Positions 31,133-39,956 of a stretch of 64,000 bases of DNA are shown piece after piece (the stretch's first letter is position 1; every line of letters begins with the position of its first letter). Origin of the DNA: Oscillospiraceae bacterium (GTDB lineage Bacteria > Bacillota > Clostridia > Oscillospirales > Ruminococcaceae); contig JAUNSK010000005.1 in assembly GCA_030539275.1 (NCBI GenBank), positions 62,001-126,000 on the forward strand. Direction: 5' to 3'. A model generated the notes under the pieces. The model had not been told where the DNA came from and ran no database searches. It was given only the letters and a program-made list of their open reading frames with translations. The position numbers were made by a program, and so were the translations under genes.

Positions 31133-32257
31133 TTATTCCAGTTCGAATGTTATATTGTTGTCTTTAGCATACTTTTCAGCAGCAGTTCCTTTTTTTGATT
31201 TGATGACAAAAGAGTCTACAAGCTTGATCTTGTCATCTGAGGATTCGTTTGCGGATGAATCTGCGGAGCTGTCCTGTGATGCTGATGATGTTACCTGCAT
31301 GTAGCCTAGTGCATGTTCACCTATCTTTTCAACTGATTCAGGAACACTTATTGCAGTAGTTGCTGTACAGCTGTAAAATGCTGCTTCACCAAGTTCTGTT
31401 ACAGTTGACGGGATCGTGATGCCTTCAAGAGCACTGCATCCTGCAAAGGCGTCTTCGCCTATGTATGTAATACCTTCAGAAAGATTTATTGATTTAAGTC
31501 CGAAATTACTGTAAAAAGCATAATCAGGTATTTTTGTTATGGCGGTTCCGAGTTTGACATCAGTGAGATAGTCGCACTGTGCAAATAAGCCTGTTCCCAG
31601 AGAATTCACACTGTCAGGAATATTTGCGCTTTGAAGTTCGTTACAATGGAAAAAGGCATAATCTCCAATAGTTTGTACTGATTTTCCTATAACTACTGAT
31701 GTAAGTCCGAAACACTCATAAAATGCATAAGATCCTACCTGTGTAACTGAGTCAGGTATGGTAACTGAAGCAAGTTTATCACAGCAGGCAAATGATCCTT
31801 CTCCTATAGTGGTAAGTCCGCTGCCGAGCGTTATCTGAGTAAGACTGTAGCAGTTTACAAATGCACCTTCCTCAAGCTCTGTTACTGTGTCAGGCAGGCT
31901 GATTGCTGTAATAGAGTTTATATTGTTTGTTTTGTAATATGCCCCGCTGTCATCGCTTCCTGGTTCCTCAAATCCGTCAAAGGCTTTTTCACCTATTTTT
32001 GTTACAGGCATGTTGTTGATCTTGTCAGGAATTCCGACAGTTTTTGATGAACCCTTATATCCTGTGATTGTTATCTCTGAGTTTTCGGTTTTATAAACAA
32101 AGTCATCCTCACTGTTGGTTTCAACAGCTATAGTAGTTATGGCAGGCGTAGTCTGTGCGCTGCTGTCAGACTTTTTTGAGCTGTCTGATGAGCTGCAGCC
32201 GGCTGCACATACTATCAGCAATGATAAGGCAAGTGTAAGGGATATTAAATGTTTCAT
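31133..32257 (-). CDS. BspA-type leucine-rich-repeat lipoprotein
   Basis: 374 residues from ATG 32257 (GGAGG 5 nt ahead; ten more codons of open frame lack an SD). Lipoprotein signal MKHLISLTLALSLLIVCAAG with Cys at ~21. Residues ~85-320 consist of repeated LRR_5 units (ITSVVIGKSVQTIGDYAFFH-like: ...LPDTVTELEEGAFVNCYSL, IPDSVTQVGSYAFYEC), each ~23 residues. A short acidic tail follows. Such repeats mediate surface binding to host or other proteins; ligand unknown. Confidence 0.88.
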   Translation of the reverse strand: MKHLISLTLALSLLIVCAAGCSSSDSSKKSDSSAQTTPAITTIAVETNSEDDFVYKTENSEITITGYKGSSKTVGIPDKINNMPVTKIGEKAFDGFEEPGSDDSGAYYKTNNINSITAISLPDTVTELEEGAFVNCYSLTQITLGSGLTTIGEGSFACCDKLASVTIPDSVTQVGSYAFYECFGLTSVVIGKSVQTIGDYAFFHCNELQSANIPDSVNSLGTGLFAQCDYLTDVKLGTAITKIPDYAFYSNFGLKSINLSEGITYIGEDAFAGCSALEGITIPSTVTELGEAAFYSCTATTAISVPESVEKIGEHALGYMQVTSSASQDSSADSSANESSDDKIKLVDSFVIKSKKGTAAEKYAKDNNITFELE

Positions 32258-32399
32258 ATAATCCTCCGTATATATAATTCGCGTCAAATAAATATGTATC
32301 TTTTATATTATAGCTTTTAACTATGATATATTCAATATATTTCATTAAAATATCATAAAAAACAGGATATCATGAAATCAATATGATATCCTGTTTATA

Positions 32400-35087
32400 T
32401 TATCTAGGTTTTATTTTTGATATTATAATAGTTATAAGTGTCCAGACGAGGTTATACAGAAGGATCATAAGAGGAGTTACTTCATTTATTGCACCAAGAA
32501 ATACAAAAGCAAGTGTAATAAACAAACCTATGATAACTGAAGTACATTGTAGAATGATTCCTGTCATAACACTCTGGTGAACAGCCTTGATGTTTGTAAG
32601 AGCTTTTGTTATAGAAGAAAGTGTTCCGGTGCAGACTACAGATGAACTCATCCTCGGAACCTGATCAGTCAGTGTCTGACAGTACTCATGTACATCTGAC
32701 GGAATTATTTTGATCATGTCTTCCGGGATGTCATAGAGCCTGGAGACTCTGTTGATGGTTGTTATGGAATCCATGCTTCTGATCATCAGGCAGATGTTGT
32801 TGTCAATAAGTTTGTGAAGATGACGTTTGACAGAAGCATCCGGTTTTACCTTGAGAACATACATAGCGGAAAGGTTTCCGGAGATCGAAAGGTATAAGGC
32901 TATGCGGCCTTTTCCGATAAGATCTTTTTCTTTTGATTTTGGCGGAAGACCTTCAATGTTGTGATTTGTCATCAGCTGACGTGTGCCGAGAAGAATTCGT
33001 TTGTTCTTGATCCATCCGCAAAGTCCCATGGAATCCTCAAATGAATAGTTCTCAACTTTGTTGAGCATAGAGATCTTTCCGTCAATAATTTTATTGAATA
33101 TATGAAACAGAACGCTGTTTGCACAGTGAGTCAGACTTGCTGCAGCAATTATTGCGTCGTCAATTTTTGTATCAGAGAAAATTTTTATCGCAGTAAGCTT
33201 TACGGTGTTTTCAGGGAAAATCTGAGTTGAATCAATGATAACTGAATTTGTATCATAAAAATCATCAATACTCTGATAGCCCAGGATCAGGCTTTCATTA
33301 TGCTCAGCATCTGCTGCTGCGTTGCTCAGCGGAAGATTTACTATAAGCGGTACTGCAAAGCATGATCCCGCTGAAAGAAACAGTGAAAAAACTGAAAGTA
33401 TAAATCCTGCACTGACAGTCTGCATGCTGCTGTGATAGAAAAGTGTGCATACAATAGTCATTACTGCAGCAAATGCTGATACTACAGGAACAGCGAGTTT
33501 GCAGAACTTGTCGGCAATATCGGATGAGTATGTATACTTCAGGAAATCACAGGCAAAAGATGTTTTTCTGGCTGCTGTAAGAACCGGAAAATCAGTAATA
33601 ACGCCTTTTGTGATCTGCTGTGCCTTTGCCTCATCGTCTACATATACAAGACCGTATTTTTCTGACTCTGACATCAGTACGTCAAAGTTGTTGATCGCCC
33701 TGCTGACTATCAGGTTTTTGCCAAGCGTATTGATGAGAAATGCAGTGATTGCGACAGGGGTAAATATATAGATATTCTGATTCTGCAGCAGTTCAATGCC
33801 TGAGGTCGAGGCCGCTGCAGCAATTGTACTTATTGTCAGTACAAGAGATACAAGGCTGTCACAGTCTGCTTTCTTTTTAATGATGTTCTTCAGTCCGTTT
33901 GTTATGATCGGAAGGGATGAGAAAAGCACAATTGCACTGATAAGGAACATTGCAAATCCATATGTATGCGGTGATGATGCAATATCAAAGCTTTTGAATA
34001 CAGGAAGGGAATACAGCGGTGCTGCTGAGAGATAGATGGAGATAAGAGCAGCGATTATCTGCACGATAAGCTTTGCTGACAGATTGGATTTAAGATTATA
34101 CAGGTCGTCAAGAATTATTGATGAATCACCGGGTGTATTATAGTCATCGAGCTGTCTGGTAGCTTCCTTGCCTGAGTTCTTATTAAGTTCATTAAAAAAG
34201 CTGTTTACCTTCTGCTTTCTTTTTTTATCAAGAGCCGGGTCGTCAGTATTTTCGTTGATCTGTACGTCGATTGAAAAAAAGTCAACGTCAGGAGTAGACT
34301 TTACGTTTATCTTAGCATCTTTCTGTGATACTGATTTTTGTCTGAAAATATCATAGGCTGTTTGTCTGAAACTGTTTGCAGCGCATTCAACTACTGATGT
34401 AAAATCATGTCTGCTGTTATAATCTTCAGATGATACGTCATTTTTCAGTTCATAAAGATCGGATTTTGTCTGAAGAGTTTCAGGATCCTTTTTCTTTTTG
34501 AATCTTTTCTTTTTAGAAGTGTCGGCCGTCTCCCGGGGGGTATCAGATACTTTTTTTATGTAGCGGATATTATCACAGGGGTTTTCCACTATTTTATTGG
34601 GCTTGTCTGTGATTCTGGTCGCACTTCTGTCTATAAAGTTCGGTGAAACAGCCGGTTCAGGCAGTGTGTCATTTTCCTTAACATCAATTTCGATGCTGCT
34701 GCCGTCATCGTTGTCAGCTTCTTTCTCCGGTACAGCCGGCTGCCCGGCTGTAATGGTTTCAGCCGTTTGTTCATCAGTTTCATTTGCAGCTTCGGGTTCT
34801 TCAGATAAAACGGCTTCTTCCTGTGCTGATTCTTCAGATACGGTTTCTTCAGAAAGTTTCAGAGACAATTCATCATCGTCATCTGAATCGTCAGTATCCA
34901 GATCATCAAGCTGAATATAGTCCGGCTCCTCATCTTCCCGGGATGCAGCAATGTATGATTCTTCATCGGATGATCCAATAATGGAATCCAGGCTGCTGTC
35001 GGGTTCCGCCGGTGTCTGAAGGCGTTCTTCATCTATTGAATACTCATCAAGGATATCATCAATTGAATAGTTATCTTTTTTTGCCAT
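32400..35087 (-). CDS. P-type-ATPase-like membrane protein lacking the catalytic motifs (probable pseudoenzyme)
   Basis: 895 residues. Residues 1-330 are hydrophilic, acidic and probably disordered, starting with KKDNYSIDDILDEYSIDEE. Helices occur at about 341-361, 377-393, 411-427, 437-455, 530-551, 557-578, 837-861 and 868-886. The C-terminal 560 residues match the layout of a P1B-type ATPase: AGSCFAVPL (573-581) stands where CPC lies, IIDSTQIFPENTVKL (617-631) where DKTGTLT lies, a nucleotide-binding-like part with GWIKNKRILLGTRQL (~691-705), MIRSMDS (768-774) in place of TGDN, and no GDGxND before the last helices. The key phosphorylation motif keeps Asp619 but has lost KTGT. Likely a regulatory or structural relative without pumping activity. 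Followed 14 bp upstream by rlmB on the same strand. SD GAGGAG. Confidence 0.75.
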   Translation of the reverse strand: MAKKDNYSIDDILDEYSIDEERLQTPAEPDSSLDSIIGSSDEESYIAASREDEEPDYIQLDDLDTDDSDDDDELSLKLSEETVSEESAQEEAVLSEEPEAANETDEQTAETITAGQPAVPEKEADNDDGSSIEIDVKENDTLPEPAVSPNFIDRSATRITDKPNKIVENPCDNIRYIKKVSDTPRETADTSKKKRFKKKKDPETLQTKSDLYELKNDVSSEDYNSRHDFTSVVECAANSFRQTAYDIFRQKSVSQKDAKINVKSTPDVDFFSIDVQINENTDDPALDKKRKQKVNSFFNELNKNSGKEATRQLDDYNTPGDSSIILDDLYNLKSNLSAKLIVQIIAALISIYLSAAPLYSLPVFKSFDIASSPHTYGFAMFLISAIVLFSSLPIITNGLKNIIKKKADCDSLVSLVLTISTIAAAASTSGIELLQNQNIYIFTPVAITAFLINTLGKNLIVSRAINNFDVLMSESEKYGLVYVDDEAKAQQITKGVITDFPVLTAARKTSFACDFLKYTYSSDIADKFCKLAVPVVSAFAAVMTIVCTLFYHSSMQTVSAGFILSVFSLFLSAGSCFAVPLIVNLPLSNAAADAEHNESLILGYQSIDDFYDTNSVIIDSTQIFPENTVKLTAIKIFSDTKIDDAIIAAASLTHCANSVLFHIFNKIIDGKISMLNKVENYSFEDSMGLCGWIKNKRILLGTRQLMTNHNIEGLPPKSKEKDLIGKGRIALYLSISGNLSAMYVLKVKPDASVKRHLHKLIDNNICLMIRSMDSITTINRVSRLYDIPEDMIKIIPSDVHEYCQTLTDQVPRMSSSVVCTGTLSSITKALTNIKAVHQSVMTGIILQCTSVIIGLFITLAFVFLGAINEVTPLMILLYNLVWTLITIIISKIKPR

Positions 35088-35101: not shown

Positions 35102-35878
35102 TTATTTCTTTCTTTGTCTGACAGCCTCATACATAAATATTCCGGCTGCAACTGAAGCGTTGAGCGAATTTACCTGTCCGGCCATAGGAAGGCTTACAAG
35201 AAAATCGCATTTTTCTTTTATTAACTTGCCCATTCCAAATCCTTCAGAGCCGATAACCAGTGCAATTCCTCCTGTAAAGTTGACGTTTGTATATATTTCT
35301 CCTTCAGCGTCAGTCCCGTATATCCATATATTTTCTTTTTTAAGATTTTCTATTACGGAAGCAAGGTTAGGAACTCTTGCAACAGGGATCCAGCTTGCGG
35401 CACCTGCAGAAGTTTTAAATACAGTGTTGTTAAGTGAAGCACTGCGTCTTTTCGGAATAATTATTCCGTCTGCACCAGCCGCTTCAGCTGTTCGTATGAT
35501 TGCACCGAGATTATGGGGGTCTTCTATTTCGTCACATATTATTATAAAAGGATCAGAGCCCTTTTTTCTGGATACATCAAGGATATCTTCAACAGTAGAA
35601 TACTGTGCACATGCACATACTGCAGCTGCACCCTGATGAGCAATTGTGTTGCATATCTGGCGCATTTTCATGTCATTGACGTTCTTTACAACGATCTGTC
35701 TGTCTCTTGCAAGTGAGGATATTTTGCTGTAAACTGCACCTTGACCGCTTAAGTATACTGTATCAATAGACATATCGGATTTCAGGGCTTCAATAACCGG
35801 GTTTTTTCCATATATTATGTCGCTGCGTTCTTCCTGCTCATCAGTGATTATATTATCAGGGCTCATATTTTTATCCAT
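35102..35878 (-). CDS. rlmB: 23S rRNA (guanosine-2'-O-)-methyltransferase RlmB-like (TrmH family)
   Basis: 258 residues: N-terminal substrate-binding domain (DIIYGKNPVIEALKS) and SPOUT catalytic domain with DEIEDPHNLGAIIRTAEAAG, ALVIGSEGFGMGKLIKEKCD and LPMAGQVNSLNASVAAGIF, the three motifs of the trefoil knot that binds SAM. Methylates a ribose in 23S rRNA; homologues act at G2251. Upstream of the pseudoenzyme gene by 14 bp, so one transcript is probable. Confidence 0.9.
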   Translation of the reverse strand: MDKNMSPDNIITDEQEERSDIIYGKNPVIEALKSDMSIDTVYLSGQGAVYSKISSLARDRQIVVKNVNDMKMRQICNTIAHQGAAAVCACAQYSTVEDILDVSRKKGSDPFIIICDEIEDPHNLGAIIRTAEAAGADGIIIPKRRSASLNNTVFKTSAGAASWIPVARVPNLASVIENLKKENIWIYGTDAEGEIYTNVNFTGGIALVIGSEGFGMGKLIKEKCDFLVSLPMAGQVNSLNASVAAGIFMYEAVRQRKK

Positions 35879-36040: not shown

Positions 36041-36298
36041 TTACAGACATTTAAAAATAATAATTGTCACTATAAGAAATGTTATAACAGCTGCGGCCAT
36101 AAAATACAGCAGTGTTTTAGAAGATCTTTTTTCATAATTTTCAGGAGACATCTGATCAAGATAATATTTTGCTTCATTCATCAGGTGCTTCTGAGGAGTC
36201 GATGACATCTGTGAGCGGACATACAGAACAGCCTTTTCGAAATAGATGTTATTCGTATCATTTATTTCAATAATTTTTTTGTTAACGCCTTTAATCAT
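36041..36298 (-). CDS. Small C-terminally anchored membrane protein
   Basis: 85 residues from the ATG at 36298 (AAAGGA 7 nt ahead; longer frames exist but have no SD). A soluble N-terminus with IEINDTNNIYFEKAVLYVRS and AKYYLDQMSPE is followed by one hydrophobic helix (~64-83) near the C-terminus (LLYFMAAAVITFLIVTIIIF). Resembles small tail-anchored proteins of Firmicutes, but no family recognised. Confidence 0.55.
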   Translation of the reverse strand: MIKGVNKKIIEINDTNNIYFEKAVLYVRSQMSSTPQKHLMNEAKYYLDQMSPENYEKRSSKTLLYFMAAAVITFLIVTIIIFKCL

Positions 36299-37643: not shown

Positions 37644-39956
37644 ATGACAGAGAAAAATAAAAAATTGAATATAGCCCTGATGATCAATTATGTTGCCAAT
37701 GATTACTCATATTCAGTATGCAGAGGGGCTGCAATAGCTGCTCAGGAATATGACATAAATCTGCTTATCGTCCCGGGCGGTGAAATAAACAAACAGCAAA
37801 ATGATCTTTATGAATTTCAATATCAGAATAACGTTATATATTCGTATATCACCAAAAATAATATAGATGTGCTTATAATTTCACTGGGCACCGTAGCAGG
37901 ATTTATGGACAGCAGACAGACTATAGAATTTCTTGATTCATTCAAAGGCATTAAAGTCATTGTACTGGAAATGGAAGTTCAGGGGTATCCGAGCATCACT
38001 TATGATCTGAATGGTTTTGAAGAGTCTGTAAGACATCTTATCGAATATCATCATAAGAAAAGAATAGGCTATGTCGGAGGTCCCAGAGATCAGCAGGTAG
38101 CACAAAAGAGACTTGAGGCTTATAAAAAAGTTCTGTGTGAATGCGGCATTGAGTTCGATGAAAATCTTGTAGTTTACAGTGATTTTTCTGATAAAGCTGA
38201 TACCGTAGTAAGAGAGCTTCTGGATAAAAACAAATCTGATCCTCCTGATGCGGTCTGTTTTGCAAATGATACTATGGCGCTTGCCGGTTATAAAGTATTT
38301 GAACAAAGAGGTATAAAGATAGGCAGAGATATAGCAGTTACGGGTTTTGACGATGTATCTTTCGCCGATGTGATAAATCCGCCGCTTACAACTGTAAAGT
38401 CTGCTATTATGTCGATCGGATATAAGTCTGTTGAGGCAGCAGTGAGATATATTCAGGAAGATAAAATAGACAACATAACGATCAATACATACTTTATGTG
38501 CAGGCAGTCGTGCGGGTGTCCTGAGACAGACTACTATACACGTTTTAAACCAGAACCTGCAGATATCAGTATGTCCGCGTCTGATCTGGCGGAAAGAGTC
38601 AGAAAATACATAATAGAAAAATCGTCCCTGGACATTATTTCCAGATCACAGCTTATAAGACTGAAATCGTTTATAATCGTAATGATAGAGAATCTTGTCT
38701 GCAAGCAGGACTTTGAAGTAAAAGAACTGATAAGAATTATTGAAAGATTTCTGTCAAACAACGATATGATCTATTATAATCTTGATTCACTTAATGAACT
38801 TATATATATTCTCAAAGAAATATCTCTCAACCTGGCTGATAAGGATAAACAAATTAAAATATATAAAGTATTTGAAAGATTTTATGATTATATAAATGAT
38901 TTCTATGCTGGCAAGCTTTTCTCAGCAGAAAGGGAGAACGCACAGTACCAGTTAGTTTACAGCAAGGTAGCAAACGATATGATGGCTAACGGCAAGGACG
39001 AGAAAAAATGCTTTTCACTTATTATGGATGATATCTGCAATATGAAGATGAAAAGCTGTTATATATACGTTTATGAACAGTCGTTTTTAAATCAGAAAGT
39101 TACACAAACAAAACAAACATGGAAAAGACCCGGGAAAATATTTCTTAAAGCTTTTAAAAACGGAGAGATATACCAGATCCCTCAGGCGTCACAGCAGGCT
39201 GTAGATTCTGAGGCATTTATGGAAAACATGTTTACACCAAATAACAGAACAAAGACAATGATACTCAAGGCACTGTTTTTTAATGAGGAACAGTATGGAA
39301 TTCTTCTTGCTGAGACTACTGTGAACGGCATGCTTGATATTGAGACAGCGTCTCAGCAGCTGTGTACAGCAATAAAAATGACCAGATTTATGAATCTGAT
39401 CGAGTCAGCACTTGTTAATGTTCAGCAAGCGAATGCGATCCTTAGCAAAGAATCAGTTTCAGACCAGCTGACCGGACTATATAACAGAAGAGGATTGATA
39501 ATCGAATCAGAAAAGCTGCTCAAACAATATACAGACAGATCATGCCGCTGCGCAGTTATTTTTGCAGACCTTGACAGCCTGAAGATAATCAATGATACAT
39601 TTGGTCATGATGAGGGTGATTTTGCAATCAAAAAAGCATCTGAGATCCTGAAGATAAATATGCGTTCATCTGATATAGTAGGACGAATAGGCGGAGATGA
39701 GTTTGTTGCATTTGTTATGGAAGCTGAGGAAAAATGTCTCTACTCGGTTATTGACAGAATAAAAAAATGTGCAGATGAATTTAACCAAAGCAGTCAGAAA
39801 CCGTATAATGTTGAATTAAGTCTTGGAGTTTATTGCTTCAATTCATATGACGGCGAGACAGCAGACAATCTTATGAGCAAAGCTGATCATATACTGTATG
39901 AAAACAAACAGCACAAAAAAAGCACACCGATCAAGGATCTGCTGAAAAAAAGATGA
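37644..39956 (+). CDS. Cytosolic LacI-type sugar-sensor fused to diguanylate cyclase
   Basis: 770 residues with no signal peptide or membrane helix. Residues ~8-285 are a periplasmic-binding-protein-1/LacI C-terminal fold (MINYVANDYSYSVCRGAAIA, RIGYVGGPRDQQVAQKRLEA, DIAVTGFDDVSFADVINPPL) without the usual HTH. Residues ~300-590 form helical and GAF-like linkers. The GGDEF domain follows (~595-770): LTGLYNRRG, VIFADLDSLKIINDTFGHDEGD, and an intact GGDEF at ~683-687 preceded by RSSD, the RxxD inhibitory site. Predicted to make c-di-GMP in response to an imported ligand. Own promoter and tandem SD (AAGAAGGTGG). Confidence 0.9.
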   Translation: MTEKNKKLNIALMINYVANDYSYSVCRGAAIAAQEYDINLLIVPGGEINKQQNDLYEFQYQNNVIYSYITKNNIDVLIISLGTVAGFMDSRQTIEFLDSFKGIKVIVLEMEVQGYPSITYDLNGFEESVRHLIEYHHKKRIGYVGGPRDQQVAQKRLEAYKKVLCECGIEFDENLVVYSDFSDKADTVVRELLDKNKSDPPDAVCFANDTMALAGYKVFEQRGIKIGRDIAVTGFDDVSFADVINPPLTTVKSAIMSIGYKSVEAAVRYIQEDKIDNITINTYFMCRQSCGCPETDYYTRFKPEPADISMSASDLAERVRKYIIEKSSLDIISRSQLIRLKSFIIVMIENLVCKQDFEVKELIRIIERFLSNNDMIYYNLDSLNELIYILKEISLNLADKDKQIKIYKVFERFYDYINDFYAGKLFSAERENAQYQLVYSKVANDMMANGKDEKKCFSLIMDDICNMKMKSCYIYVYEQSFLNQKVTQTKQTWKRPGKIFLKAFKNGEIYQIPQASQQAVDSEAFMENMFTPNNRTKTMILKALFFNEEQYGILLAETTVNGMLDIETASQQLCTAIKMTRFMNLIESALVNVQQANAILSKESVSDQLTGLYNRRGLIIESEKLLKQYTDRSCRCAVIFADLDSLKIINDTFGHDEGDFAIKKASEILKINMRSSDIVGRIGGDEFVAFVMEAEEKCLYSVIDRIKKCADEFNQSSQKPYNVELSLGVYCFNSYDGETADNLMSKADHILYENKQHKKSTPIKDLLKKR

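Follow-up and report, generated by a model that had tools for sequence, protein, structure and literature searches.

A near-universal family of P1B-type pseudo-ATPases encoded directly downstream of rlmB in the order Oscillospirales

We analyzed a window of 64,000 nucleotides from an Oscillospiraceae bacterium (assembly GCA_030539275.1, contig JAUNSK010000005.1, positions 62,001 to 126,000). On the minus strand of this window, an open reading frame with an ATG start (32400..35087) encodes a protein of 895 amino acids, which a preliminary description had taken for a membrane-bound, non-pumping relative of P1B-type ATPases. Located 14 nt upstream, on the same strand, is rlmB (35102..35878), encoding a 23S rRNA 2'-O-methyltransferase of the SpoU family, the product of which matches PF00588 (SpoU methylase) with 155.2 bits and PF08032 (substrate-binding domain) with 50.8 bits. 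Upstream of rlmB, a gene at 36041..36298 (minus strand) encodes a small protein of about 85-90 amino acids with a C-terminal hydrophobic segment. This protein (M(I/V)KGVNKKIIEI...FEKA...YVRP) has no Pfam match and belongs to a homology cluster found in 14 loci, and its gene may open the operon in some members of the family. The likely operon terminator is an inverted repeat of 15 bp immediately following the end of the pseudo-ATPase gene (32360..32396, minus strand), with a T run seen by eye on the minus strand; the number of terminator-like sites, 2 against 2.7 expected from shuffled sequences, is no higher than chance, and the stem was recorded on the plus strand. Downstream of the operon lies a gene for a BspA-type leucine-rich-repeat protein with, by eye, a lipoprotein-like start (31136-32251, minus strand), whose cluster spans 12 loci, predominantly from the same genus. 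Elsewhere in the window, a plus-strand gene (37644-39953) encodes a protein of 770 amino acids in which a GGDEF domain comes after a LacI-type periplasmic-binding-like domain; it may be a diguanylate cyclase that senses sugars.

A Pfam search with the 895-residue protein matched no family, and at an E-value of 0.001 none, including E1-E2_ATPase, was found over 39 aligned rows representing 38 distinct sequences (L057 occurs twice). The heavy-metal ATPase models of NCBIfam match the protein far below their cut-offs. When the single protein was compared with solved structures using phmmer, residues 524-809 matched the copper ATPase LpCopA (3rfu) with an E-value of 2.1e-13, and a profile built from the family alignment improved this match to 2.2e-23, the other four matches being likewise copper ATPases. 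Comparison by hhalign of a 72-row family alignment, from which 8 of 79 named loci had been omitted as near-duplicates, with 18 intact P1B ATPases gave a probability of 99.6 and an E-value of 5.7e-25 over 456 columns, ranging from helix MA to beyond the TGD motif. Because all these matches are to P1B or copper ATPases, the protein is P1B-derived. Its hydrophobic segments in the C-terminal part are compatible with eight helices in P1B order, comprising MA, MB, M1 and M2 (residues 319-471; 33675..34133, minus strand; alignment, hydrophobicity and model), M3 and M4 (residues 524-598; 33294..33518, minus strand; hydrophobicity and model), and M5 and M6 (residues 823-892; 32412..32621, minus strand; hydrophobicity and model). 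Thus, MA, MB and the six core helices, together with the A, P and N domains, of which the A domain is reduced, follow one another as in P1B ATPases, which bears out the helix and domain order proposed beforehand. G398 and the sequence ADCDSL correspond to the P1B G...PNMDxL segment between MB and M1, and the conserved membrane positions of the family include D410, N453, G456 and P586. In a structure model, compared by VIA-align, the membrane helices are intact, the N domain keeps its fold and the P domain a part of its own; of the A domain, only a stub is left, so that the expected folds are present in part.

To count motifs, 55 orthologues from the order were aligned with the 18 intact P1B ATPases, leaving out 4 truncated loci of 59. 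Where the phosphorylation motif DKTGT is expected, the window protein reads DSTQI (residues 619-623; 33219..33233, minus strand), and none of the 55 orthologues has the complete motif, Lys620, Gly622 and Thr623 each being absent throughout. The change to DSTQI was therefore noted correctly in the preliminary description, which had also listed Asp619 as a retained feature. This residue occurs in 19 of the 55 orthologues and is replaced elsewhere mainly by S, N or R, so that its presence in the window protein is incidental. Directly after the old DKTGT site, the family carries a signature of its own, (L/I)FP, with P625 found in 47/55. The TGD motif is altered to SMD (residues 771-773; 32769..32777, minus strand) and is complete in 0/55, as anticipated, but its loss is not total, as the aspartate (Asp773) is kept in 53/55. 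The GDGxND columns are gapped in all 55 orthologues, at a site where about 32 residues are missing (residues 806-815 in the window protein; 32643..32672, minus strand), and from TGD across the hinge region the orthologues mostly have 43 residues (40-46), compared to about 75 (74-79) in P1B ATPases; the reported absence of this motif is a deletion. The A domain has been reduced to a stub (residues 472-523; 33519..33674, minus strand; span length and model), its span being mostly 71 residues (58-82) versus 136 in 18/18 P1B controls, with the TGES columns gapped in 55/55. At the metal site, alignment confirmed SCF in place of CPC (residues 575-577; 33357..33365, minus strand). Among the orthologues, a cysteine is present at 575 in 2/55 and at 577 in 0/55, and the middle proline in 33/55. 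The HP histidine of the N domain is found in none of them.

The named loci (n = 79, mostly Ruminococcus records) likewise contain no DKTGT, GDGxND or TGES, while a loose CPC-like pattern anywhere in the reading frame was found in 18/79. Motif loss in all 55 aligned and all 79 named loci, none of which keeps DKTGT or GDGxND, is neither chance nor sequencing error, and the search for orthologues with the same loss, suggested in the preliminary description, therefore turned out in its favor. An active pump with relaxed motifs is ruled out by this loss and by the missing parts of the A and P domains. Taken together, the family descends from copper ATPases, with the P1B helix order and the N domain kept and the catalytic and metal-site motifs lost, and the 895-residue protein is almost certainly a pseudo-pump, in line with the homology and the motif loss. 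Its best match in fold and sequence are the P1B-1 copper ATPases (CopA, LpCopA 3rfu, ATP7B, HMA4), with which it shares MA-MB and the six core helices in order, the N domain, a partial P domain and the MB-M1 segment. Unlike these, the family lacks complete DKTGT, TGES, GDGxND and CPC motifs, the HP histidine and a CxxC motif in the tail, and it has a halved A domain, a shortened P domain and a long, mostly acidic tail with an N-terminal motif of its own.

Much of the strongest conservation within the family lies in the cytosolic N domain (residues 629-748; 32844..33203, minus strand), which contains most of the conserved residues, namely F664, E684-D685, G688, W692, R697, G701, R703 and Y732. 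G688 and G701, kept in 54/55 and 55/55, respectively, belong to the invariant positions of the P1B N domain as well. Of the 55 orthologues, 22 retain the first glycine of GxG. In contrast to these shared glycines, the conservation of F664, E684, D685, W692, R697 and R703 is peculiar to the family. E684-D685, W692, R697 and R703 are present in 64-73% of the 55 orthologues and are invariant or nearly so in a 19-row family alignment.

The N-terminal tail (residues 1-315; 34143..35087, minus strand) varies among orthologues in both length and sequence and is unalignable between genera. The first 300 residues of the window protein have a net charge of -41, and tails are net negative in 44/52 members. 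Of the proposed acidic and disordered first ~330 residues, the acidity is thus confirmed, and disorder seems probable from composition and unalignability. A CxxC metal-binding motif, usual but not universal in P1B ATPases, was found in 0/51 tails. Within this otherwise non-aligning region, a short motif, SIDDILDEY (residues 8-16; 35040..35066, minus strand), is conserved. The strict form of the pattern (I/V/L)(D/E)(D/E)I(L/M)x(E/D)(Y/F/I/V) occurs near the start in 27/51 tails, against a mean of 0.04 in shuffled sequences, and is absent from the other 24; two loci (L051 and L052) contain two copies of the peptide. Shared descent accounts for part of this recurrence. Its survival in a drifting region suggests that it might be a docking peptide. 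A degenerate DNA pattern of the motif, allowing one mismatch, gave 3 matches in the own genome compared to 1 in a reversed control, the sole exact match being the pseudo-P1B-ATPase gene itself. Among neighboring open reading frames, the strict motif was found only once, at L055, apparently at the start of the family's own gene.

An initial search with the single sequence matched 60 of 61 genomes, the own genome included, and also picked up true pumps; 2 of these 60 best matches contained an internal stop. For the distribution of the family, we searched automatically drawn samples of the order, the class and the phylum. With a profile and an E-value threshold of 1e-30, a strong orthologue was present in 236/247 genomes of the order. 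Among the 11 genomes below this threshold, five (G387, G422, G484, G508, G532) have a divergent orthologue, scoring 79-103 bits, that adjoins rlmB on the same strand; the four long frames of these five (L263 aside) are without DKTGT and GDGxND. In G348, the contig ends 419 nt past rlmB. The genomes G373, G393, G404, G427 and G524 have neither the pseudo-ATPase nor a close RlmB, their SpoU matches reaching 62 bits at most. As the two genes adjoin, their joint absence from a draft genome could stem from one assembly gap. G373 and G427 belong to the same genus, the only one in which this absence was seen twice, so at least one real loss of both genes is likely. In the class sample, 14 genomes of the order scored at least 185 bits and the best of 278 others 99.8 bits, and the 16 top matches outside the order are all intact pumps with DKTGT, CPC, TGES and GDGxND. 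In the phylum sample, 3/249 genomes matched, all from the order itself, and neither the class nor the phylum sample contained a match outside the order at E 1e-30. The pseudo-P1B family is therefore specific to the Oscillospirales and near-universal in this order, although the low scores of its divergent members mean that a divergent orthologue might exist elsewhere.

The preliminary description had asked whether rlmB is always beside the gene, and this is nearly always the case. Of 59 loci, 53 have rlmB directly upstream in the same orientation, and in the named set it is directly upstream in 75 of 79. Four of the six misses in the first set are contigs that end within 394 nt of the gene, and all four in the second begin at a contig end, so that contig ends explain 8 of the 10 misses in both sets together. 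The real exceptions, L060 and L092, are 2 of 55 loci with room upstream yet no rlmB there; judging the names by eye, a MutS/MreB-like region and an Obg-like gene, respectively, occupy this position. The gap between rlmB and the pseudo-ATPase gene is -7 to 69 nt in 44 of the 53 loci and -196 to 1106 nt in the remaining nine, some of these values being due to unrefined start sites. Thus, the gene is tightly linked downstream of rlmB, and the pair is held while the genes flanking it on the far sides vary.

rlmB itself is not restricted to the order, being present in 57/57 genomes outside it in a second class sample (59/59 overall). Among 28 rlmB loci examined outside the order, one (L274) has a P-type ATPase behind rlmB, and another (L290) has only 104 nt of downstream sequence. 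The L274 genome belongs to f40, a family of another order in the same class, from which four loci were fetched (L295-L298), one from that genome and three chosen from the class matches; four other f40 genomes lie outside this count. In all four, rlmB is followed by an intact copA, the frame of which abuts or overlaps rlmB, and whose product has a CxxC metal-binding motif near its N terminus in addition to TGES, CPC, DKTGT and GDGIND. The pairing of an rRNA methyltransferase gene with a copper pump gene in f40 is odd in itself. The f40 CopA resembles our family in lying directly downstream of rlmB on the same strand, and an aspartokinase-like gene (by eye) is found upstream of rlmB in the f40 loci as well as in L095 and L263 of the order; unlike our family, its TGES, CPC, DKTGT, GDGIND and N-terminal CxxC motifs are intact. 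The aspartokinase-like gene was found in 2 of 143 order loci searched, and also in 4 of 27 other outgroup loci that have no ATPase (L267, L271, L272, L285).

A quickly built tree with 37 rows, among which 17 represent the family, groups the latter as one clade inside P1B (SH-aLRT 100) with a stem of 3.06 changes per column. Warnings about long branches and sequence composition apply to this tree, and the branch lengths render any placement within P1B unsafe. The family was not placed beside the rlmB-linked CopAs (17 members; long branches), and a sister relation to these was not retained. The best intact match is the f40 CopA for 7 of 55 members and another protein for the other 48. The presence of an intact rlmB-copA pair in another order suggests that such a pair is ancestral and that the pump may have decayed in place, an independent insertion behind rlmB being possible as well.

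On balance, we think that the protein is probably a non-pumping membrane scaffold or sensor that arose from an rlmB-linked copA, and whose tail or N domain would bind a partner or ligand. Most likely, an ancestral copA that was already located behind rlmB would have given rise to the gene, and its product would no longer pump. The cytosolic head, composed of the N domain and the reduced P domain, could then form with the flexible acidic tail a membrane-anchored scaffold or sensor, in which the conserved SIDDILxEY-type peptide may serve to dock a partner from the cytosol and the changed pocket of the N domain may accommodate a partner or ligand. RlmB, or a 50S assembly intermediate on which RlmB acts, would be the likeliest partner, given that both genes are kept side by side and are absent from the same genomes. 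Such a partnership with RlmB is a tentative proposal, which we hold to be less likely than not. The related suggestion that a pump encoded behind rlmB was stripped of its pumping parts in the ancestor of the order and became a membrane anchor for RlmB and a scaffold for ribosome assembly, whereby 23S rRNA methylation or late 50S assembly would be held at, or report to, the membrane, must be called doubtful. A study on E. coli reports that RlmB contributes to 50S assembly in a way that does not depend on its modification activity (PMC11194073). The linkage may simply come from an ancestral rlmB-copA pair, which makes it less telling with regard to methylation than it first seems, and the mostly acidic tail speaks against direct binding of RNA. 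The new regulatory role, perhaps tied to rRNA methylation, that the preliminary description had proposed is conjectural.

An ancestral rlmB-copA pair would equally account for the linkage if rlmB were a bystander and the protein a nucleotide or second-messenger sensor unrelated to RlmB, with the N domain binding the ligand and the membrane part signaling. The retention of G688 and G701 beside the newly conserved E684, W692, R697 and R703 would fit such a sensor, but the HP histidine is lost in 55/55 and the first GxG glycine is left in only 22/55, and the persistence of the pair while its flanks changed, together with the joint absence of both genes, argues for coupling, so that we find this explanation rather unlikely. 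The protein might instead act as a non-catalytic subunit that pairs in the membrane with one of the cell's intact P-type pumps and regulates it. The fold is kept in the model, and all 59 order genomes tested have at least one match to PF00122, hence a pump partner would always be available. However, PF00122 pumps are also present in 14/14 control genomes, so their presence is nothing specific, and the conserved neighbor is rlmB rather than a pump gene, which makes a pump subunit distinctly unlikely.

A passive channel or carrier, through whose membrane part a substrate would pass with no hydrolysis of ATP, would agree with the intact membrane helices in the model and the conserved D410, N453, G456 and P586. 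Yet the metal site is gone, with cysteine at the CPC positions in 2/55, no new ion site is evident, and much of the strongest conservation is found in the cytosolic N domain, and we therefore hold this explanation to be quite improbable. A decaying relic without function could be imagined from the lost catalytic motifs and the internal stops in 2 of 60 best matches, but 236/247 genomes of the order keep the gene, its reading frames are long and open and encode residues conserved specifically in the family, and we reject this explanation as almost certainly wrong. Compared with these alternatives, a membrane scaffold or sensor remains our preferred reading.

Pseudoenzymes are well known. The family described here is near-universal in a large gut order, invisible to Pfam and linked to the gene of an rRNA methyltransferase, and it allows a test of whether a transporter fold can be turned into a scaffold or sensor. 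If the link to RlmB is true, the membrane and ribosome assembly would be connected in an unusual way. The FUPA families are functionally uncharacterized P-type-like proteins said to lack the catalytic aspartate or phosphorylation site, and by this general description our family resembles them in being P-type-like without a phosphorylation site. Among FUPA titles, none deals with such a family in the Oscillospirales, and listings of the open-licence literature yielded no earlier account of a family of dead P-type pumps spanning an order. No such dead-pump family is mentioned in the available part of a review (PMC10654040).

Finally, genes of apparently translational function were seen by eye near some of the loci, namely an Era-like gene (L087), a YebC-like gene (L084), the Obg-like gene of L092 and a cluster of EF-G-like genes, which is suggestive only. 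The EF-G-like cluster has members in 14 of the 59 loci, and the EF-G-like gene lies downstream of the pseudo-ATPase gene on the same strand in L055, L061, L065, L069, L070, L080, L088, L091, L095 and others.
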